Assembly (NCBI GenBank): GCA_002070415.1
Contig: MWDF01000002.1
Span: 62,001-126,000 of the forward strand
DNA: 64,000 nucleotides
Direction of reading: 5' to 3'
From: Firmicutes bacterium ADurb.Bin153
Lineage (GTDB): Bacteria > Bacillota > DTU025 > MWDF01
The notes under the pieces are model-generated. The model saw only the letters and a program-made list of their open reading frames with translations, was not told the origin of the DNA and did not search any database. Shown here piece after piece: positions 24,523 through 33,171 of the stretch. The position numbers were made by a program, and so were the translations under genes. Position 1 is the stretch's first letter. Each line of letters opens with the position of its first letter.

Positions 24523-24556
24523 AACGGCGCGGAGCGAATGGCCCGCGCCGTTTCTT
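24523..24556 (+). terminator. Terminator of the iron-type ABC operon
   Basis: Perfect 10-bp stem AACGGCGCGG / CCGCGCCGTT (24523-24532 with 24543-24552), then TCTT. Confidence 0.8.
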
Positions 24557-24594
24557 ATCCGGATTGCGCGGATGGCCCCGAATGGAGGGGACGG

Positions 24595-25101
24595 ATGAAG
24601 AAACTGATATTGGTGAGCGGCACCATGGGTGTTGGTAAGACCACCGCGTGCAGGATGCTCTACAAAATGGCCCCTAGGACTGCCTGGCTCGACGGGGACT
24701 GGTGCTGGCTCATGAACCCCTGGAATTTATGCGATGAGAACAAGGCCATGGTGATGTCCAACATCACCTTCATGCTCGGCGCGTACCTCTCCAACTCCAC
24801 CCTAGACAATATAGTGTTCAGCTGGGTGATGCACAGGAAGGAGATCATAGACGAGCTCCTCGGGAGGATTTCCGGGCACGGGTTCGAGCTCCATTTGTTC
24901 GCCTTGGTATGCTCCCCCGCAGAACTCTCGTCCAGGATGGAGGAGGACGAAAGGGACGCGGAGAACATCAAGGCTAGCATAGAGAGGCTGCCCCTTTACA
25001 GGGGCATGGGGTGGGAGGTCATCGACACTACGCACATGGGGCCCAAGGACGTTGCTCGGGAGATCGCCGGAAGATCCGGGCTCACAGACGGCAGGGGATG
25101 A
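24595..25101 (+). CDS. P-loop nucleotide or small-molecule kinase (AAA_33-like)
   Basis: 168-aa ATP-binding protein with Walker A GTMGVGKTT (residues 9-17) at the very N-terminus and no recognisable partner domain. This is the architecture of small kinases such as shikimate, gluconate or chloramphenicol kinases. WLDGDWCWLMNPW could be the acceptor-site loop; the lid region is ERDAENIKASIERLPLY. Substrate unknown. GGAGGGG lies 5 bases before ATG 24595; in-frame codons upstream run into the terminator. Confidence 0.8.
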   Translation: MKKLILVSGTMGVGKTTACRMLYKMAPRTAWLDGDWCWLMNPWNLCDENKAMVMSNITFMLGAYLSNSTLDNIVFSWVMHRKEIIDELLGRISGHGFELHLFALVCSPAELSSRMEEDERDAENIKASIERLPLYRGMGWEVIDTTHMGPKDVAREIAGRSGLTDGRG

Positions 25102-25199
25102 CCGACAAAAGGACATTTCGTCCGCCTGCGCTGCTATAATGGCTAGTGACACCTTTGGCCTTAAGACGATGACGACGAGTAAGATGGGAGGCGCGAGGA

Positions 25200-26078
25200 T
25201 TGAAGGTTGGTTTCGTAGGATTAGGACTAATGGGAGGCCCGATGGCCCTGAACATCCACATGGCGGGCTTTGAGCTAATGGTATATAACAGGAGCGCGGA
25301 GAGGCTGGTGCCATTTGCGGAACTCGGCATACGTGCGGCCTCCTGCCCGGCCGAGCTTGCCAGGGAGTGCGGGGTCGTAATCACCTGCGTGAGCGATTCT
25401 CCGGACGTGGAGCAGGTCTACCTCGGCAAGGGGGGCATCCTGGAGGGTGCCATGCAGGGCCTGATCACGGTGGATTGCAGCACGATATTGCCGCAGGTCG
25501 AGAGGAAGATCTACGACAAGGCGGCGGAACTCGGGGTATCGCATCTCGATGCGCCCGTCTCAGGCGGCGTGAAGGGCGCCAAGGCGGCCACGCTTGCGAT
25601 TATGGTCGGAGGCGACGAGATTGCCTTCCTCAAGGCAAAGCCGATCCTTGACGCGATGGGCAAGAACGTGACGTACGTAGGTTCGAGCGGCTCCGGCCAG
25701 GTGATCAAGCTCGCTAACCAGACCGTCCTTGCCGGGAACATGCTCGGCCTTTGCGAAGGTCTGATAATCGCGATGAAACACGGGGTCGACCTCGATAAGG
25801 CCGTAGAGATCCTGTCAAACGGCACGGCGTCGAACTGGACGCTCGTAAACCAGGGCAAGCAAATGGTCGATTGCGACTGGAGCGCCGGTTTCTACTCCAA
25901 GCTGTTCAAGAAGGACCTCTCGATAGTGCAGACCCTCGCAAGACAGACGAACAGCAGCCTGCCTTGCTCGGCGCTTGCGCTGTCGCTGTATAATGCGCTG
26001 AGCAACATCGAAGGCGGGGACGATATGGGCCACCAGGCGGTCCTTAAGGTGTTCCGCATGCTATCGGGCCTGGAGTAG
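25200..26078 (+). CDS. Beta-hydroxyacid dehydrogenase (tartronate-semialdehyde reductase / HIBADH family)
   Basis: 292-aa NAD(P)-dependent 6PGDH-like dehydrogenase. The chain starts directly with the Rossmann motif VGFVGLGLMGGPMA. DAPVSGGVKGAKAATLAIMVGG is the substrate-site signature, and GSGQVIKLANQ contains the catalytic Lys. Members reduce tartronate semialdehyde, succinate semialdehyde or 3-hydroxyisobutyrate; I cannot tell which. The start codon is TTG 25200, with GGGAGG 8 bases upstream; no other start keeps the nucleotide-binding strand. A TATAAT box at 25135-25140 may drive it. Confidence 0.9.
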   Translation: MKVGFVGLGLMGGPMALNIHMAGFELMVYNRSAERLVPFAELGIRAASCPAELARECGVVITCVSDSPDVEQVYLGKGGILEGAMQGLITVDCSTILPQVERKIYDKAAELGVSHLDAPVSGGVKGAKAATLAIMVGGDEIAFLKAKPILDAMGKNVTYVGSSGSGQVIKLANQTVLAGNMLGLCEGLIIAMKHGVDLDKAVEILSNGTASNWTLVNQGKQMVDCDWSAGFYSKLFKKDLSIVQTLARQTNSSLPCSALALSLYNALSNIEGGDDMGHQAVLKVFRMLSGLE

Positions 26079-26158
26079 GCCCACCTGAAGCCCGCGTTTA
26101 AAGGGACTTCGGTATAGTATCTGGCCGACGCATCCTGAGACGAATGGAGGGGAATGAC

Positions 26159-26302
26159 GTGAAGAAGTTCCCTATAGCCGCCACCGTAGCGATATTCATG
26201 CTCGGAGCCGCGCTGATCGTAGCCGGGGGATTAGGCGGCGAGTTCCGCGCGATATTCCTTAACGCGACGATACTCTGTTTGTCGTGCATCGGGGTGCAGT
26301 AG
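26159..26302 (+). CDS. Small CXXC membrane protein (CD1871A family)
   Basis: 47-aa single-span protein read from GTG 26159, with GGAGG 7 bases upstream, to TAG 26302. One hydrophobic helix (about residues 6-24) is followed by GEFRAIFLNATILCLSCIGVQ. The short charged break after the helix and the terminal CLSCIG match the CD1871A CXXC family of Clostridia. The next gene starts at the following base, so the two are surely co-expressed; a redox or maturation role with that Fe-S membrane protein is inference. Confidence 0.8.
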   Translation: MKKFPIAATVAIFMLGAALIVAGGLGGEFRAIFLNATILCLSCIGVQ

Positions 26303-27130
26303 ATGGGAAACACCGAGAGGCTGAGGAACTATGTCCAGATAGGAGCGGCGGTCCTGCAGAATTCCTATTTCTTCAAGGGGCTCAAGTTCTGTCCGACGCC
26401 GTCCTTGAACTGCTATGCGTGCCCGCTGGCGGTGACCGCCTGCCCGATGGGCAGCCTGCAGAACCTGATACTGAAGGGCTATCTGCCCCTGGCTGTGACG
26501 GGTTTCTTCGTATCGCTGGGAGCGGCGGTTGGCAGGGCCTCCTGCGGCTGGGCGTGCCCGTTCGGTTATGTACAGGAGCTTCTGGGAAAATTAGGCAGGA
26601 AGAAGGTCAGGGTATCCAATGAGTACGGCTGGCTGCGTTACGTGATCCTGGCGGTCACGGCGCTGGCGCTGCCGTTCATACTGAAGAGCCCAATATTCTG
26701 CAAGCTCTGCCCGGCGGGCACGCTCGAGGCGGGAATCCCCCTGGCGCTTCTGGATGAGGAGATAAGGGAGATCATCGGGCCGCTTTTCTGGCTGAAGGTG
26801 GGCCTGCTCGTCGCGGCCGTCTGGGCCGCGGTGAAGATTAAAAGGCCGTTTTGCAGGTTCGTCTGCCCGCTCGGGGCGATATACTCGCCCTTCAACAGGA
26901 TCAGCGCATTGCGCATGGAAGTGCACGGGAAGTGCGTCAGGTGCGACGCCTGCAAGGAAATATGCCCAGTGGACATGTCAATATACGAAGGGCCCAATTC
27001 CGGAGCGTGCATAAGGTGCATGAAATGTACCGGGTGCTCGGCCGTGGGCGTGAGTTTCCTCGGGAAAGAGATAATAAAGGCCGGTCGCGAAGGCAGGATA
27101 GGGCGTGCGGCCTATGATAGGCAGAGGTAA
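26303..27130 (+). CDS. Membrane 4Fe-4S polyferredoxin (NapH/CcoG-like)
   Basis: 275-aa membrane protein with many cysteine motifs: CPTPSLNCYACPLAVTACPMG, CGWACPFG, CKLCPAG, CRFVCPLGAIYSPF, and a C-terminal ferredoxin pair CVRCDACKEICPVD plus CIRCMKCTGC. At least four hydrophobic helices lie between them. This is the NapH/MauN-type fold that passes electrons across the membrane. It abuts the CXXC mini-protein, so the pair may reduce an extracytoplasmic thiol partner (inference). RNase HIII-like gene follows after 5 bases. Confidence 0.88.
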   Translation: MGNTERLRNYVQIGAAVLQNSYFFKGLKFCPTPSLNCYACPLAVTACPMGSLQNLILKGYLPLAVTGFFVSLGAAVGRASCGWACPFGYVQELLGKLGRKKVRVSNEYGWLRYVILAVTALALPFILKSPIFCKLCPAGTLEAGIPLALLDEEIREIIGPLFWLKVGLLVAAVWAAVKIKRPFCRFVCPLGAIYSPFNRISALRMEVHGKCVRCDACKEICPVDMSIYEGPNSGACIRCMKCTGCSAVGVSFLGKEIIKAGREGRIGRAAYDRQR

Positions 27131-27135
27131 GACGA

Positions 27136-27813
27136 TTGAGTGAGTTCAAAGGAATAAGGCGCATCGGCATAGACGAATCCGGCAAAGGCGACTACTTCGG
27201 CCCACTGGCAATAGCGGCGGTCATGGTCGGGCCCGAGGACGAGGATTACCTGGAAGAAGCCGGGGTCAAGGATTCGAAGAGGCTGACTGACAAAAGCATC
27301 GCCAGGCTCGCTGCGATAATCTCGGGAAGGTGCAAGTACTCGGTGGTAAGGGTCGGCCCTACAAGGTACAACTCGCTGTACGAGAAGATAAAGAACCTCA
27401 ACAGGTTGCTGGCTTGGGGGCATTCGAGGGCGCTCGAGAACGTCCTTGAGAAATCCCCGGGCTGCGAGATCGCCATATCGGACCAGTTCGGCGACGAATC
27501 CTTCCTGATGAACGCCCTCATGAAGGGCGGACGGCGGGTGAGGCTGGTACAGATGCCCAAGGCCGAGCAGGACATCGCAGTGGCCGCCGCGTCGATCATG
27601 GCCAGGGCGGAGTTCGTCAAGGCGATGGATGCGCTGTCGGACGACGCAGGCATGAGACTGCCCAAGGGGGCCTCGGACCCGAACGTTGCCGCTGTCGCGA
27701 AGGCCCTTTTAGGACGGGGCGGCATAGAGGAGCTTTCGAAGTACGCAAAGATACATTTCAAGATCACTAAGCAGGTGACGGAAGGCGTACCTGCCGGCAA
27801 GCGGGGTGTATGA
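27136..27813 (+). CDS. rnhC: Ribonuclease HIII-type nuclease lacking the N-terminal TBP-like domain
   Basis: 225-aa type-2 RNase H that cleaves the RNA strand of RNA-DNA hybrids. GIDESGKGDYFGPLA carries Asp-Glu of the active site, DSKRLTD the next motif, ISDQFGDES the third Asp, and AEQDIAVAAASIMAR the fourth. GKGDYFGPL is the HIII-type signature. Typical RNase HIII is about 300 aa with an N-terminal substrate-binding domain; here the chain starts at the catalytic domain. TTG 27136 is the only sensible start, with AGAGGT 7 bases upstream. Confidence 0.85.
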   Translation: MSEFKGIRRIGIDESGKGDYFGPLAIAAVMVGPEDEDYLEEAGVKDSKRLTDKSIARLAAIISGRCKYSVVRVGPTRYNSLYEKIKNLNRLLAWGHSRALENVLEKSPGCEIAISDQFGDESFLMNALMKGGRRVRLVQMPKAEQDIAVAAASIMARAEFVKAMDALSDDAGMRLPKGASDPNVAAVAKALLGRGGIEELSKYAKIHFKITKQVTEGVPAGKRGV

Positions 27814-27814
27814 T

Positions 27815-29281
27815 TTGTTCGTCGAGGTCGTGCTGATAATATCCGCAGCGTTGGCTGCAGTGTTCGTGTTCATGCTCCTTAAGGCGGCGTACATGCCCAC
27901 AAGGCAGATGGCACCGGGCAAGGCGCAGGAAACACCGGGATTCGACATCGAGAGGGCATCCGGGAGGCTGGCTTCAGCATTGAGGTTCAGGACCGTCAAC
28001 GGCGGCGTTCACGATGAAGGGGCGAAAACCGAGTTCCTTAAGCTGCACGAGCATCTTAGGAACAGCTACCCTAACGTATTCTCGAAGGCGGAAGTGAGCG
28101 TCCACGGAGGATATTCCCTTCTCGTCAGGCTCCGCGGCAAGGATGCGTCGTTGAAGCCCGTCATATTCATGGGACACATGGACGTGGTGCCTGTCGAGGA
28201 AAGCAGCGCGGACAGATGGCTGAACCCAGCTTTCGGCGGGACGATTAACGAGGGCTTCATCTGGGGCAGGGGAGCGCTGGACTGCAAGCATGTCGTCCTT
28301 GGATTGCTGGAGGCGCTCGAGGAGCTCCTCAACTCCGGATACGAGCCCTTAAGGGGTATCTATCTGGCTTTCGGGCACGACGAGGAGACAGGCGGGGCTG
28401 AAGGGGCGGCCGCGATCGGCGCGTTCCTCGAAAGCGAGGGGACGAAGGCGTGGATGGTGCTTGACGAGGGCGGCAGGGTAGACGCCCCCGGGCATCTCAC
28501 AGGCAAGCCTCTGGAAGCCGTAATCAGCATAGGCGAGAAGGGTTACGCCAGCTTCAGGCTGGAAGTCGACATGCCTGGCGGGCATTCCGCGAGGCCTCCC
28601 AGGGAGAATGCGATAAGCGTGCTGATAAAAGCGGCGGACAAGGTGAACAGCCACAGCTTTTCACCCAGGATCGAAGGGCCGGTATCCGACCTTCTGAGTT
28701 TCGCCGGGACCGAGATGGGCTTCTGGAAGAGGCTTGCGATAGCCAACATGTGGATAGCCAAGCCGTTCGTGGTCGGATGGCTCGCATCCTCCCCGTCGAC
28801 CAACTGCCTGATGAGGACTACCGCCGTGACCACCATACTGAAAGCCGGGATGAAGGACAACGTGATTCCGTCCCACGCAGAGGCGATAGTGAACACAAGG
28901 CCTGCTTTCGGCGAGACGCCCGAGAGCGTAAGGTGCGAGCTGGAAAGGGCGATAGCCGACAAGAGGGTGAAGATAGTGGCCTCGGGGCACCAGCATACCC
29001 CGTCGAGCGCCTCACCGGTCGACTGCGACCAGTTCAGGCTGCTGCAGAAGGTAATAGCCGGGCATTTTGAGGACCCTGTCGTAATACCCGGGATACTCAC
29101 GGGCGGTACGGATACCAAGCACTATGCGAATCTTAGCGACGCCGTCTACAGGTTCATCCCCGTGAGGCTTTCGCACGAGCTGGCAGAAGGCGTGCACGGG
29201 ATAAACGAGAGGATACCGGTCGATGAATACGGAAGGATGATTGGCTTCTACATGGAGATCATGAAGGAAGCGTCGTCATAG
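27815..29281 (+). CDS. Membrane-anchored M20 peptidase (carboxypeptidase S / PM20D1-like)
   Basis: 488-aa zinc peptidase or aminoacylase. An N-terminal helix (VVLIISAALAAVFVFMLL) anchors it. GHMDVVPV, RGALDCK, HDEETGG and GGTDTKHY supply the metal ligands and catalytic Glu. The dimerisation lid is PGGHSARPP. The large size and anchor match carboxypeptidase S/PM20D1 rather than ArgE/DapE. I prefer TTG 27815, which has GGGGTG 6 bases upstream; GTG 27806 overlaps that site and the RNase gene's end. It belongs to the plus-strand run from 26159 to 30511. Confidence 0.85.
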   Translation: MFVEVVLIISAALAAVFVFMLLKAAYMPTRQMAPGKAQETPGFDIERASGRLASALRFRTVNGGVHDEGAKTEFLKLHEHLRNSYPNVFSKAEVSVHGGYSLLVRLRGKDASLKPVIFMGHMDVVPVEESSADRWLNPAFGGTINEGFIWGRGALDCKHVVLGLLEALEELLNSGYEPLRGIYLAFGHDEETGGAEGAAAIGAFLESEGTKAWMVLDEGGRVDAPGHLTGKPLEAVISIGEKGYASFRLEVDMPGGHSARPPRENAISVLIKAADKVNSHSFSPRIEGPVSDLLSFAGTEMGFWKRLAIANMWIAKPFVVGWLASSPSTNCLMRTTAVTTILKAGMKDNVIPSHAEAIVNTRPAFGETPESVRCELERAIADKRVKIVASGHQHTPSSASPVDCDQFRLLQKVIAGHFEDPVVIPGILTGGTDTKHYANLSDAVYRFIPVRLSHELAEGVHGINERIPVDEYGRMIGFYMEIMKEASS

Positions 29282-29308
29282 GCAAACATACCTTCGGAGG
29301 TGCATCGG

Positions 29309-30511
29309 ATGGCAAACAGAGTGATGATTTCAGACAGGGTGGACTACGTCGGGTCCCAGGACTGGGACAGGACGATATTCGATTCCCTGATCCCGCTCCC
29401 GGACGGGACCAGCTACAACTCATATATCGTCAAGGGGTCGAGCAAGACGGCGCTCATCGATACGGTGGACCCTAAGTTCCTCCAGGAGCTGGAGGGCAAG
29501 CTCGAGGAAGCAGGAAACGTGGACTACGTCGTGGTCAACCACGTAGAGCAGGACCACAGCGGATGCCTCAACATGGTGTTGGACAGGTATCCAAAGGCTA
29601 CGGCCCTTTGCTCTGAGAAGGCGAAGGACCTAATAATCACCCACTTGCATACGGCCCCGGAGAGGATAATCACCGTAAAGGACGGTGAGGAACTGAGCCT
29701 GGGCGATAGGACGCTCAGGTTCGTGTATGCTCCTTTCGTGCACTGGCCCGAGACCATGCTGACGTACTTGGTTGAGGACCGGATCCTGTTCTCCTGCGAC
29801 ATGTTCGGCTCCCACCTTGCCTCGTCCGACGTCTTCACGGTGAAGCCGCCTCATGAGTACGTCGAGTCGTGCAAGAGGTATTACGCAGAGATAATGATGC
29901 CTTTTGCGATTCCCATAAAGAAGAACCTGGAGAAAGTGGAGGCGCTATCCCCTGCGATGATATGCCCGAGCCACGGGCCATGCTGGACGGAGCCGGCTTT
30001 CGTCATGGACCTCTACAGGAGATGGTCGCAAGGAGCGCCCGAGAACAAGGCGCTGCTGCTGTATGTCTCGATGCACGGGAGCGTGTCGGCGATGGTCGAA
30101 AGGATTACAGACAGGCTATCCGCCGCGGGCGTATCTGTTGCGAGGGTGGACCTTACTGAGCCTGACCTGGGAAAGATTGCGATCAATCTAGTGGATTCGC
30201 ATACGATACTGATCGGCACGCCAACGGTGCTGGGCGGGCCGCACCCGAAAGTAGCCTCCGCCGTTGTGCTGGCCAACGCACTGAGGCCCAAGGCAAAACT
30301 CATAGGGATAGTCGGATCGTTCGGCTGGGCGGGCAAGGCGCCCGAGGTGCTGGCGTCGCTAGTACCCAACCTGTCCGGCGCAGAGCTGCTACAGCCACTG
30401 ATGCTGAAGGGCCTACCTGACGAGGACGGCATCCGGAAGCTGGACGAGTTCGCCGACACTCTCATCGACAGGCATTCCAAGGCTTTCCCGAAAGAAGATG
30501 GATGCTGCTAG
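29309..30511 (+). CDS. fprA: Flavodiiron protein FprA (A-type flavoprotein)
   Basis: 400-aa oxygen or nitric-oxide reductase of anaerobes. The N-terminal metallo-beta-lactamase domain has the diiron ligands His78, Glu80, Asp82 in NHVEQDHSG, then FVHWPE, SCDMFGSH and CPSHGPCW. The C-terminal flavodoxin domain starts near residue 245 (LLYVSMHGSVSAM) and includes GTPTVLGGPHP. No rubredoxin domain is fused. CGGAGG lies 8 bases before ATG 29309. It ends the operon at the terminator at 30536. Confidence 0.95.
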   Translation: MANRVMISDRVDYVGSQDWDRTIFDSLIPLPDGTSYNSYIVKGSSKTALIDTVDPKFLQELEGKLEEAGNVDYVVVNHVEQDHSGCLNMVLDRYPKATALCSEKAKDLIITHLHTAPERIITVKDGEELSLGDRTLRFVYAPFVHWPETMLTYLVEDRILFSCDMFGSHLASSDVFTVKPPHEYVESCKRYYAEIMMPFAIPIKKNLEKVEALSPAMICPSHGPCWTEPAFVMDLYRRWSQGAPENKALLLYVSMHGSVSAMVERITDRLSAAGVSVARVDLTEPDLGKIAINLVDSHTILIGTPTVLGGPHPKVASAVVLANALRPKAKLIGIVGSFGWAGKAPEVLASLVPNLSGAELLQPLMLKGLPDEDGIRKLDEFADTLIDRHSKAFPKEDGCC

Positions 30512-30535
30512 GCTGAATCTAAGCTATTAGAGCCG

Positions 30536-30581
30536 AGAGCACCGTCCGGGACTCAAGTGCCGGGACGGTGCTCTTTCGTTT
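30536..30581 (+). terminator. Terminator after fprA
   Basis: 12-bp perfect stem AGAGCACCGTCC / GGACGGTGCTCT (30536-30547 with 30563-30574), followed by TTCGTTT. Confidence 0.85.
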
Positions 30582-30684
30582 CGCATCTTAGCGGTGCTGA
30601 TCTGCCTGAAGGTTTCGCAGATGCGTCTGACATTGTTTAGCGGTGTCATGCCGAGTGCCGCGACCTGCGGCGCCGTCAGTTCCT

Positions 30685-31479
30685 TCAAGTGCTGCCGGGT
30701 TCTTCTATGTGGCCGATTGATTCCTCATCGCTGTCCCTGCCCATCGCGATCGCGTTGAAGCTGGATCCCAGTATCGTCTCCATGCCGATCGGATCTAACG
30801 AAATCGTATCCGCGTACGAAGTCAGGGTGGACGACATGCATGACGCGCCGGGCAACGAAGCGGGCCACAGAAGGCGCACGGATAGATTGTAAGGATCTGA
30901 GATGACAGAGAACCCAAGGCCGCCTTCGTAGTCCACCGCCATCATCCTAACGGCCTTGTTGCCCGTCGAATACCAATCATAGTGCGCAACGGCAAGGACC
31001 TTCAGGACCGCGTCGTATACATCGGCCTTGTCGATCCCGTTGCCGGTTATTCCTTCAGCCGCTGTCACGATCACGGCCATGTCGTCGGCGAGGGAAGTCA
31101 GCGTACAGTAGCCGTTCACGGCATATTCGAAACCCGCGAACCTTGCCGTTCCCGCGCCCTGGACCTGTAGTATGAGCAGCCTTGCCAGATGTTCCGTGGC
31201 GCCGTTGACCCCGGGGATGCAGCACGGCTTCATCTCGGGTCCGCCTACCAGCACTGCCAGGCCGTTTACGTCGTAGGCCTCCTCCGTGTGCTCTAGCCCG
31301 AAGGCACTGGCGATTTCTCCTACCGGAGGCAGCAAGCCGGGTTCCCGCTTCGTGAGGAGGGAATGTCCGTTCAGCAATCCCATGTCCAAAGCCGGCGTGT
31401 CGGAAGCTGCGCCGACGGACGAAGAAGCCAGCAGGATAAATAGGACAAGCGACAGTTTTATGGCTACACAGGTCTTCAT
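30685..31479 (-). CDS. Secreted protein of unknown function
   Basis: 264-aa exported protein I do not recognise. Signal peptide (VAIKLSLVLFILLASSSVGA-AS), then GLLNGHSLLTKREPGLLPPVGEIASAFG and a Cys-Cys pair in MKPCCIPGVNG. Mixed alpha/beta with no catalytic motif I can name. ATG 31479 has GGAAGG 8 bases upstream; an ATG at 31485 is also possible. It follows the pckA terminator on the same strand, so it probably has its own weak promoter or depends on read-through. The C-terminus is acidic (DSDEESIGHIEE). Confidence 0.6.
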   Translation of the reverse strand: MKTCVAIKLSLVLFILLASSSVGAASDTPALDMGLLNGHSLLTKREPGLLPPVGEIASAFGLEHTEEAYDVNGLAVLVGGPEMKPCCIPGVNGATEHLARLLILQVQGAGTARFAGFEYAVNGYCTLTSLADDMAVIVTAAEGITGNGIDKADVYDAVLKVLAVAHYDWYSTGNKAVRMMAVDYEGGLGFSVISDPYNLSVRLLWPASLPGASCMSSTLTSYADTISLDPIGMETILGSSFNAIAMGRDSDEESIGHIEEPGST

Positions 31480-31536
31480 ATCCATATCCTTCCTTATGTC
31501 CAGGATGTAACCAAGATAACACAAAGCCGGGATATG

Positions 31537-31566
31537 AAGGAAGGCGGCCCCCATAAGGGAGCCGCC
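31537..31566 (-). terminator. Terminator of pckA
   Basis: Minus-strand stem GGCGGCTCCC-ttat-GGGGGCCGCC (31543-31566, one G-U pair), followed by TTCCTT. Confidence 0.75.
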
Positions 31567-31596
31567 CGTCTTTGTCTAGGCAGCGCAACCAGGCCC

Positions 31597-33171
31597 TTAG
31601 GCCTTGGGCCCCGCGGCGATGATCTCGGCCGTAGCGTCCTTGAACTTGGAGAAGTTCTTGACGAACCTTGAGGCCAGGTCCTTGGCCGTCTTGTCATACG
31701 CTTCCTTGTCGGCCCACATGCTCCTCGGGTCGAGCAGGTGAGCATCGACTCCGTTGCAGCTCGTCGGGACCCACACGTTGAATATGGGATGCAGCTTGAA
31801 CTCGGCATCCTTCAGGGAACCGTCGAGTATGGCCGTGATGATCGCCCTCGTTAGCGTTATGTCCATCCTCTTGCCGACTCCGTACGATCCGCCCGCCCAA
31901 CCCGTGTTGACGAGCCATACGGTGGAACCGTGCCGTCTGACCTTCTCGGCGAGCATCTCGGCGTACTTGACCGGCGAAAGCGGCAGGAAAGGTTCGCCGA
32001 AGCAGCTCGAGAACGTCGTCTGGGGTTCCACTATGCCCCTTTCGGTGCCCGCAAGCTTCGAAGTGTAGCCGCTCATGAAATGGTAGCTGGCCATATGGGG
32101 ATCCAGCTTCGCCACGGGAGGCAGAACTCCGAACGCATCCGCGGTAAGGAAGATCACTGCCCTGGGGTGGTCGCCTATGCTGGGTATGACGGCGCCGGGT
32201 ATGTAATCCAGCGGGTAGGCCCCCCTGGTGTTCTCGGTGTAAATCTCGGAATCATAATCAGGTACCCTTGTCTTGTCGTCGATGAGCACGTTTTCGAGTA
32301 CCGAGCCAAACTTCATGGCGTCCCAGATCTGGGGCTCCTTCTCCTTGGAGAGCTTGATCATCTTCGCATAGCATCCGCCCTCGAAGTTGAATACGCCGTT
32401 CTCGGACCAGCCGTGCTGGTCGTCGCCTATGAGGCGGCGCAACGGGTCCGCCGAGAGGGTGGTCTTGCCGGTGCCGGAAAGTCCGAAGAAGAGGGCGGTA
32501 TCGCCGGCCTTGCCCATGTTGGCCGAGCAGTGCATCGAGAAGACGTTCGCTTTGGGCATGAGGTAGTTCATCACGGAGAATGCCGATTTCTTCAGCTCAC
32601 CCGCGTACTGGGAGCCTGCGATCAGCACCACCCTGCGCTTGAAGTTCAGTATGATGGCGGCTTCGGAGTTCGTGCCGTCCCTTTCCGGGTCGCAGTGGAA
32701 GTTGGGGGCGCACACAACTGTAAAGCCGGGCGCGAAAGCCTTCATCTCCTCGGCGTCGGGCCTTATGAAAAGCTGCTTTACGAAGAGCGAGTGCCATGCG
32801 AACTGGGTGATGAAACGAATAGGAAGCGTGTATTTAGTATCGGCCCCGCAGAAGCTGTCGGTCACATATACGGGCTTGTCTTCGAGGTAGCCTAGGATCC
32901 TGTTGAGCAGGGCGTCGAATTTCTCCTCGCTGAAAGGCACGTTTATCTTTCCCCAGGCAATATCGTTCTTTGTCAGGTCCTCTTCGACCGTGAACTTGTC
33001 GTTAGGGGACCTTCCCGTGTACTTCCCCGTCCTTGCGACTAGAGACCCGGTAGACGCCAAATAGCCTTCCTTGTTCGCGAGGGCATGTTCTACTAGCATC
33101 GCCACAGGCAGGTTATGGAACAGCTGCTTGCATCTGATCTTCTCGATGCTGGAATCGAACGTTCCTGGCAT
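31597..33171 (-). CDS. pckA: Phosphoenolpyruvate carboxykinase (ATP)
   Basis: 524-aa enzyme interconverting oxaloacetate plus ATP and PEP plus CO2. RTGKYTGRSPNDKF, the kinase-1a P-loop GLSGTGKTTLS, LIGDDQHGW (kinase-2/metal site), ENTRGAYPLDYIPGA and NTGWAGGSYGVGKRM are all present; the length is typical. AAGGAGG lies about 7 bases upstream of ATG 33171. In a fermenting anaerobe it may run toward oxaloacetate to make ATP, or toward gluconeogenesis. Confidence 0.97.
   Translation of the reverse strand: MPGTFDSSIEKIRCKQLFHNLPVAMLVEHALANKEGYLASTGSLVARTGKYTGRSPNDKFTVEEDLTKNDIAWGKINVPFSEEKFDALLNRILGYLEDKPVYVTDSFCGADTKYTLPIRFITQFAWHSLFVKQLFIRPDAEEMKAFAPGFTVVCAPNFHCDPERDGTNSEAAIILNFKRRVVLIAGSQYAGELKKSAFSVMNYLMPKANVFSMHCSANMGKAGDTALFFGLSGTGKTTLSADPLRRLIGDDQHGWSENGVFNFEGGCYAKMIKLSKEKEPQIWDAMKFGSVLENVLIDDKTRVPDYDSEIYTENTRGAYPLDYIPGAVIPSIGDHPRAVIFLTADAFGVLPPVAKLDPHMASYHFMSGYTSKLAGTERGIVEPQTTFSSCFGEPFLPLSPVKYAEMLAEKVRRHGSTVWLVNTGWAGGSYGVGKRMDITLTRAIITAILDGSLKDAEFKLHPIFNVWVPTSCNGVDAHLLDPRSMWADKEAYDKTAKDLASRFVKNFSKFKDATAEIIAAGPKA

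Follow-up and report, generated by a model that had tools for sequence, protein, structure and literature searches.

A CXXC mini-protein paired with a NapH-like membrane polyferredoxin in diverse bacteria: a possible route of electrons to extracytoplasmic thiols

The mini-gene and the polyferredoxin of the window

The window analysed here, a stretch of 64,000 nucleotides from contig MWDF01000002.1 of Firmicutes bacterium ADurb.Bin153, carries on its forward strand a mini-gene of 47 codons (positions 26159-26302), supported by its open reading frame, a family match and homologues in the same place elsewhere, followed by the gene for a NapH-like membrane polyferredoxin of 275 amino acids (26303-27130), hereinafter PF. 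The mini-gene starts with GTG at 26159, six bases after an apparent ribosome-binding site, GGAGGGG (26146-26152), and stops with TAG at 26300-26302; with the in-frame ATG at 26144 as the start, the protein would have 52 amino acids, but upstream of that ATG we saw no ribosome site comparable to GGAGGGG. The earlier note, made from the sequence alone, had placed a 47-residue CXXC mini-protein directly before a polyferredoxin, which held, there being no base between the TAG ending at 26302 and the ATG of PF at 26303; that the two are fused in expression, as was also claimed, is only an inference from the stop abutting the start.

The mini-protein consists of a basic N-terminus, a single predicted hydrophobic membrane helix and the tail CLSCIGVQ, with the CXXC (C40 and C43, codons 26276-26287) at a distance of three residues from the conserved tail at the C-terminus; both cysteine codons are TGC, and there is no in-frame UGA in this gene, UGA variants being found in relatives (see below). 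Compared with the NCBIfam model CD1871A_fam (NF040920), the protein aligns with positions 2-37 of 38, that is, the hydrophobic helix followed by the C-terminal CXXC, at an E-value of 5.2e-5 and 23 bits, so that homology along the model is demonstrated whereas the curated cut-off of 32 is not met; therefore, the family name, which the earlier note had given without qualification, rests on the relatives. The Pfam search with the mini-protein yielded no matches at E <= 1. Over the 47 codons, the changes at the first, second and third positions number 8, 7 and 21 in comparison with one relative from the genus, L101, 8, 7 and 22 with another, L102, and 17, 11 and 28 with the relative L100, and the C-terminal half and tail of the protein are nearly identical among the genus relatives. 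The third codon positions thus vary most while the tail hardly changes, which indicates that the mini-gene is coding and that selection acts on the protein.

PF meets the criteria for a NapH-like protein, namely, a match to the Pfam domain Fer4_5 (PF12801) well over the threshold (66.6 bits against a gathering score of 22), two CX3CP motifs and a ferredoxin-type C-terminal domain. In the NapH/MauN models of NCBIfam it scored 58.6 of the 213.05 bits (TIGR02163) and 48.3 of the 234 bits (NF007013) required, so it is to be regarded as NapH-like rather than as NapH. Neither PF nor the mini-protein matched DsbD_TM (PF02683) up to an E-value of 1, and no FMN-binding domain was among the matches of the nine window proteins scanned, which span only 24538-33171. 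The genes near the pair encode a 2-hydroxy-3-oxopropionate reductase-like protein, RNase HIII, an M20 peptidase and a flavodiiron-type protein (29300-30508), the last without a separate rubredoxin domain among its NCBIfam and Pfam matches; on the opposite strand, a reading frame of 289 amino acids (30685-31554) has no match in NCBIfam or Pfam at E <= 1.

Linkage, predicted membrane topology and the thioredoxin partner

When the CD1871A_fam profile was searched, without use of PF, against 398 genomes of the window's phylum, mini-proteins were found in 59 of them, one per genome (44 of the 398 genomes exceed the curated cut-off), and at all 59 loci the mini-gene is followed by PF on its own strand, with an overlap or a distance of no more than 200 bases in 54 cases and of 2.1 kb in the farthest. 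These loci were selected for having the mini-gene. A search of the 398 genomes with a PF profile detected 66 copies in 63 genomes, each at 217 bits or more, with a sharp gap to every other listed match, at 120 bits or less. Seven of the 66 copies had no mini-protein in the CD1871A_fam search, but L101-L104 among them do possess one that scores below the threshold, so that the mini-gene accompanies 63 of the 66, the exceptions being L105, L106 and L107. The copies L105 and L106 are second, mini-less PF copies with a neighbour that, judged by eye, resembles ApbE, which may point to a setting of the flavinylation type.

A pattern scan of named genomes added 80 PF loci, the best of at least 423 relatives, from organisms that include Lachnospiraceae, Clostridia, Coriobacteriia, Desulfobulbaceae, Spirochaetia, Acidobacteriota, Poribacteria, Stahlbacteria, Hydrothermota, WOR-3 and Aminicenantes. 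The mini-gene is upstream of PF in 73 of the 80 and missing at L113, L123, L132 (with only 325 bases upstream), L139, L148, L155 and L159. The combined set comprises 146 PF loci, 145 of them distinct as L088 and L112 are one contig; altogether, 10 of the 146 copies have no mini-gene within 2.6 kb, and the flanks of some loci are shortened by contig ends. Lack of co-occurrence in other genomes would have refuted the pairing that was proposed in the earlier note, and this refutation failed in both directions.

Seven cysteines of PF, C37, C47, C81, C85, C136, C184 and C188, are invariant over the 146 copies, C40 is conserved in 145, and the eight ferredoxin-type cysteines of the 2[4Fe-4S] domain (C211 to C245; 26933-27037), which also gives the ferredoxin matches, each occur in 143 or 144 of the 144 copies whose sequence covers those positions. 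A cysteine at position 30 or 31 was found by an automatic check in 144 of the 146 copies, and visual inspection showed it in L107, one of the remaining two, as well; C133 is replaced by serine in 13 of the 146. The loops with the two CX3CP motifs (C81 and C85, 26543-26557; C184 and C188, 26852-26866) contain on average 4.7 and 4.1 lysines and arginines, respectively, as against 2.9 in the loop with C30, C37, C40 and C47 (26390-26443) and 2.1 in the loop with C133 and C136 (26699-26710), and the mini-protein is more positive before its helix than after it in 49 of 59 cases and less so in three. From these charges, the CX3CP motifs and the ferredoxin domain are predicted to face the cytoplasm, and the six remaining PF cysteines, along with the CXXC of the mini-protein, the outside. 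To our knowledge, such an outer set of cysteines does not occur in ordinary NapH.

The AlphaFold2 model of PF is confident (pLDDT 87.2, pTM 0.81). A Foldseek search with it against the PDB gave no matches at E <= 0.001, and of 182 chains compared with VIA-align 2, six reached Z >= 2 (top Z 3.4), none of them usable. In the PDB sequence search, the 60 matches examined of a total of 82 all fall within profile positions 201-276, that is, the ferredoxin part and the residues that precede it.

At 99 of the 146 PF loci, a gene for a TlpA/ResA-type thioredoxin lies on the same strand within 1.5 kb, preceding PF in 73 cases and following it in 26; the other 47 loci have none within that distance, in part because contigs end. 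All ten examples scanned were over the Pfam cut-off for AhpC-TSA, and the ResA model matched them below its own. Nearby thioredoxin-like proteins, for which the earlier note had suggested looking, are thus common at PF loci in general, but the window's own locus (L099) has no TlpA/ResA-type gene within 1.5 kb of PF, and neither do its genus relatives adjoin one. Accordingly, the acceptor in the window's organism, if it is of this kind, must be encoded elsewhere; there is a lone ResA-like gene in the genome, outside the window, on contig C2.

Should the module supply reductant to the outside, CcdA/DsbD would be expected to be less needed in genomes with PF. Indeed, DsbD_TM was found in 19 of the 63 PF genomes versus 251 of the 335 others (p 2e-11, with kinship ignored), presence being judged visually with a threshold of E <= 0.001 (the weakest match counted, in G071, is at 9e-4) and the 398 genomes being assumed to be the same in the mini-protein, PF and DsbD_TM searches, as their labels agree. 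With one genome per family (61 genomes in 52 families, the mixed family f3 being represented by a CcdA-bearing genome, against the hypothesis), the difference persists (p 0.0095), at 5 of 12 PF families versus 33 of 40 others. Like those of its genus relatives, the window's genome departs from this pattern: it has a DsbD_TM match, probably a CcdA-like gene that, by eye, sits beside a thioredoxin on contig C9. Outside the window, at L193:4879-6080 of this genome, a thioredoxin-like gene is located next to a CcdA-like gene, after a permease, so that the organism appears to own a conventional route, too.

In-frame UGA in the thioredoxin and in the mini-protein

Of the 99 thioredoxin genes, 22 contain an in-frame TGA in place of the first cysteine of the active-site CXXC, with homology on both sides; 19 come from the window's phylum and three from named genomes (L114, Lutispora; L119, Clostridiales; L137, Syntrophomonadaceae). 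In these proteins, most of those inspected having, by eye, a lipobox-like N-terminus, the UGA likely encodes selenocysteine, an inference from sequence, as insertion was not directly observed. All 19 UGA-thioredoxin genomes of the first set have a tRNA-Sec that scores at least 64 bits, versus 20 of the 40 others of that set. After the UGA, the RNA motif GCUGCAGUUGCAGC occurs exactly in 13 of 19 genes and with one change in two more, CAGGAGUU(G/U)CCUG occurs in three, and one gene has neither; it is possible that part of this repetition stems from conservation of the protein. The folding z-score after the UGA averages -0.62, compared with -0.23 in 28 cysteine controls, which is uninformative on its own. 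On the PF tree, cysteine and selenocysteine switched at least six times in the thioredoxin. The SaoT model was not among the matches of the ten thioredoxins scanned, five of which are UGA forms.

To find similar forms of the mini-protein, TGA was read as a residue across all 146 PF loci. Five, all from named genomes, have a TGA inside the CXXC, at the first cysteine in L111, L117, L121 and L143 and at the second in L120 (CLSU-IGLE); a hairpin follows the UGA in each of the five, and each of the five genomes has a tRNA-Sec at 68 bits or more. A profile of 28 mini-proteins, including four UGA forms, was then searched against 297 genomes from the phylum to which L121 (Desulfamplus) belongs and gave 98 matches in 88 genomes, among which 29 have exactly one internal TGA and no TAA or TAG. 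In all 29, the TGA takes the place of precisely the first cysteine (LLULSCIGVG and variants), and homology runs on to the stop. We examined the loci of these 29 and of 11 of the other 69 matches; PF is inside the examined stretch for 25 of the 29 UGA forms (once upstream of the mini-gene), with four lacking it there, and for all 11 cysteine forms. With duplicates removed (L121 is L224, and L143 is L225), 32 distinct loci encode UGA mini-proteins, 31 with the UGA at the first cysteine and one at the second. The putative selenocysteine lies eight residues from the C-terminus, and such genes are easily overlooked because the plain reading frame appears to end at the UGA.

The RNA after the UGA of the mini-gene can form a hairpin, GGGGUC-GGGU-GACCCC. 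In an alignment of 30 sequences, 90.6% of the cells pair, a value reached by only 2 of 500 shuffles; double-change pairs do not exceed chance (161 of 500 shuffles), and the covariation score of 0.202 was reached by 27 of 500. Sliding the alignment by -1 gave a similar covariation of 0.207, with pairing of only 68.3%. In the second phylum, the tRNA-Sec fails to tell the two forms apart, being found in 26 of 27 genomes with UGA mini-proteins (not in G479) and in 26 of 27 with cysteine forms only (not in G435).

Fourteen UGA mini-proteins were compared with NCBIfam. The top match is CD1871A_fam for 12, with one over the cut-off (L111, 32.6 bits); in L143 the family comes only third, at an E-value of 0.8, and L237, which has a long, doubtful start, does not match it. 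No NCBIfam selenoprotein model was matched among these 14. TsoA, a selenoprotein with a "LULAXC motif" (PMC13188914), was considered as an identity for the UGA mini-proteins and set aside, as it was not among the matches of the 14 either. Taken together, the UGA at a conserved cysteine, the homology on both sides, the hairpin and the tRNA-Sec make it likely that the UGA mini-proteins represent a selenoprotein family that has not been recognised, although neither insertion of selenocysteine nor expression was directly observed. The probable exchange of cysteine and selenocysteine in the CXXC fits a redox-active thiol.

At L242, L244, L245, L247 and L249, the UGA mini-protein forms the C-terminus of a longer frame with an extra hydrophobic stretch (about 80-140 residues), perhaps two helices. 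Near the UGA mini-genes L241, L244, L245 and L249, we noticed by eye redoxin-like proteins, some of which lack the CXXC of the active site, as well as, among the same loci, CXXCH (multihaem-like) proteins.

Two correlations that involve C133 of PF were considered as proof of a thiol exit at this residue and dropped. Position 133 is cysteine at 98 of the 99 loci with a thioredoxin versus 35 of the 47 without (Fisher 4e-6, kinship uncorrected), but Ser133 has only five changes on the PF tree, and in the paired test the link is without significance. Likewise, first-cysteine UGA mini-genes with PF downstream are accompanied by Ser133 at 26 distinct loci and by Cys133 at none, and cysteine mini-genes by Cys133 at about 146 and by Ser133 at 12 distinct loci (from a tally of 210 rows, 12 of them duplicated or triplicated, with duplicates removed by hand). 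Here, a single clade of the Ser133 rows was not rejected (p-AU 0.884, the constrained tree being even better; L121, L143, L216 and L219 were left out as duplicates and eight duplicate cysteine rows remained), and the paired test is again not significant. Since the Ser133 rows may be one lineage, the pairing with UGA mini-proteins is a lead and not a test, and both correlations, which fail correction for kinship, are retained only as such.

A proposed electron route, its relatives and its rivals

What comparison shows is the gene linkage of PF and the mini-protein, the frequent thioredoxin, the exchange of cysteine and UGA codons in both small partners, the conserved cysteines and the inverse distribution with CcdA. 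From the linkage, the thioredoxin, the probable selenium and the inverse relation to CcdA, a flow of electrons from the cytoplasm through PF and the mini-protein to the thioredoxin is inferred, and we lean, if not strongly, towards the view that PF and the mini-protein form a transmembrane Fe-S conduit that feeds the dithiol of the mini-protein and then an extracytoplasmic thioredoxin, with the direction, clusters and substrates all being inferred. In this scheme, cytoplasmic electrons, probably from ferredoxin, would enter the C-terminal 2[4Fe-4S] domain of PF and cross the membrane over clusters bound to the CX3CP motifs on the cytoplasmic side and to the outside cysteines, so as to exit at the outer face. 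There, the mini-protein, with its one-helix anchor and its CXXC at the outer surface according to the predicted topology, would accept them as a dithiol, probably by exchange with C133 and C136 of PF, and would pass them to the TlpA/ResA-type thioredoxin, putatively a selenoprotein in some lineages, which would reduce outside proteins; the module may act in place of CcdA or beside it. The membrane redox module serving outside thiols that the earlier note had envisaged is thus supported by comparison and not by biochemistry, and the flow of electrons, its direction and the disulfide or metal state of the CXXC remain inferred. A bolder reading, in which this is an additional outward thiol route that, with a dithiol or selenothiol mini-protein, stands in for CcdA/DsbD in numerous anaerobes from several phyla, and in which the UGA mini-proteins are a new selenoprotein family, could just as well prove wrong as right.

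The task so assigned is already known, and it is the proposed route that is new. DsbD is a carrier that serves extracytoplasmic thioredoxins (PMC8238504), and CcdA/DsbD, which feed thioredoxins of the TlpA, ResA, StoA and Etrx types, would perform the same task with the same type of partner; however, PF and the mini-protein are unrelated to them, have Fe-S motifs in place of a relay of cysteine pairs and show the inverse distribution. The NapH-like transmembrane Fe-S proteins, including those of flavinylated systems, are transmembrane electron carriers with FMN-binding partners (PMC8238504) and share with PF the Fer4_5 domain, the CX3CP motifs and the ferredoxin-type C-terminal domain. As far as is known, PF differs from them in its conserved cysteines on the predicted outer side (C30/31, C37, C40, C47, C133 and C136), and it differs from the flavinylated systems in its partners, which are the CXXC mini-protein and the thioredoxin instead of an FMN-binding domain. 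From the CD1871A family (NF040920), to which it is homologous with a like C-terminal CXXC, the window's mini-protein is set apart by its score below the cut-off and by its UGA-bearing relatives. TlpA-like and redoxin proteins that contain UGA are already known, and the selenocysteine-containing TlpA, Redoxin and Prx-like selenoproteins have UXXC for CXXC (PMC13188914), as do the UGA thioredoxins described here, which are distinguished by their tie to PF and the mini-gene, a tie not mentioned in the relevant sections of that review; CD1871A and NF040920 do not appear in its main text. Ferredoxin:thioredoxin reductase resembles the proposed module in outline, as it passes electrons from an Fe-S cluster to the disulfide of thioredoxin, and a 4 + 2 set of cysteines may be a further analogy, but that enzyme is soluble, unlike the membrane-bound PF; its models were absent among the NCBIfam, Pfam and PDB sequence matches, and the fold comparison gave no usable ones. 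In the full-text literature searched, mostly without subscription papers, we found no paper that deals with PF alongside a CXXC mini-protein and thioredoxin, none that deals with a UGA in the mini-protein, none containing "CD1871A", and none combining polyferredoxin, TlpA and thioredoxin.

The main rival to this proposal holds that the mini-protein is a small structural subunit, the CXXC of which ligates an Fe-S cluster or another metal at the outer face of PF without any thiol-disulfide exchange; PF and the mini-protein might then jointly reduce thioredoxin or some other acceptor. The obligate pairing with an Fe-S protein speaks for this possibility, as do the presence of only two cysteines in the mini-protein and the odd set of cysteines on the outer face of PF. 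We nevertheless consider it unlikely, given that the exchange of cysteine and UGA at the first and, once, at the second position of the CXXC is typical of redox-active thiols, although selenium can also ligate metals, so that the UGA does not exclude this rival.

Electrons conceivably could flow the other way, in a DsbB-like fashion, from outside thiols through the CXXC of the mini-protein and PF into the cell, with the thioredoxin-like partner as an oxidant; the present data do not fix the direction, and NapH-like proteins are thought to serve reductases and oxidases alike (PMC8238504). Such a reversal appears very unlikely, however, because the partner belongs to the TlpA/ResA type, which is reducing, and the module is distributed inversely with a carrier of reductant, CcdA/DsbD. 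Less probable still is a role of PF as an ordinary electron carrier of the NapH type that serves a cytochrome or a reductase in the periplasm or at the surface, with the mini-protein as an assembly factor and the thioredoxin merely maturing cytochromes. NapH-like proteins do serve many oxidoreductases (PMC8238504), and multihaem-like proteins, identified by eye, adjoin the relatives L241, L245 and L249; against this, apart from the thioredoxin, the neighbours examined vary from locus to locus with no fixed terminal reductase, and those in the window encode a 2-hydroxyacid reductase, RNase HIII and a peptidase.

Under the favoured reading, that of an outward conduit, a role is proposed for a family of mini-proteins whose function was unknown, and a probable selenoprotein family is added. 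If true, the route, with a ferredoxin-type Fe-S donor, a CXXC or UXXC mini-protein as the exit and a TlpA-type thioredoxin as the acceptor, would provide a testable answer to the question of how anaerobes without CcdA/DsbD keep their outside thiols reduced.
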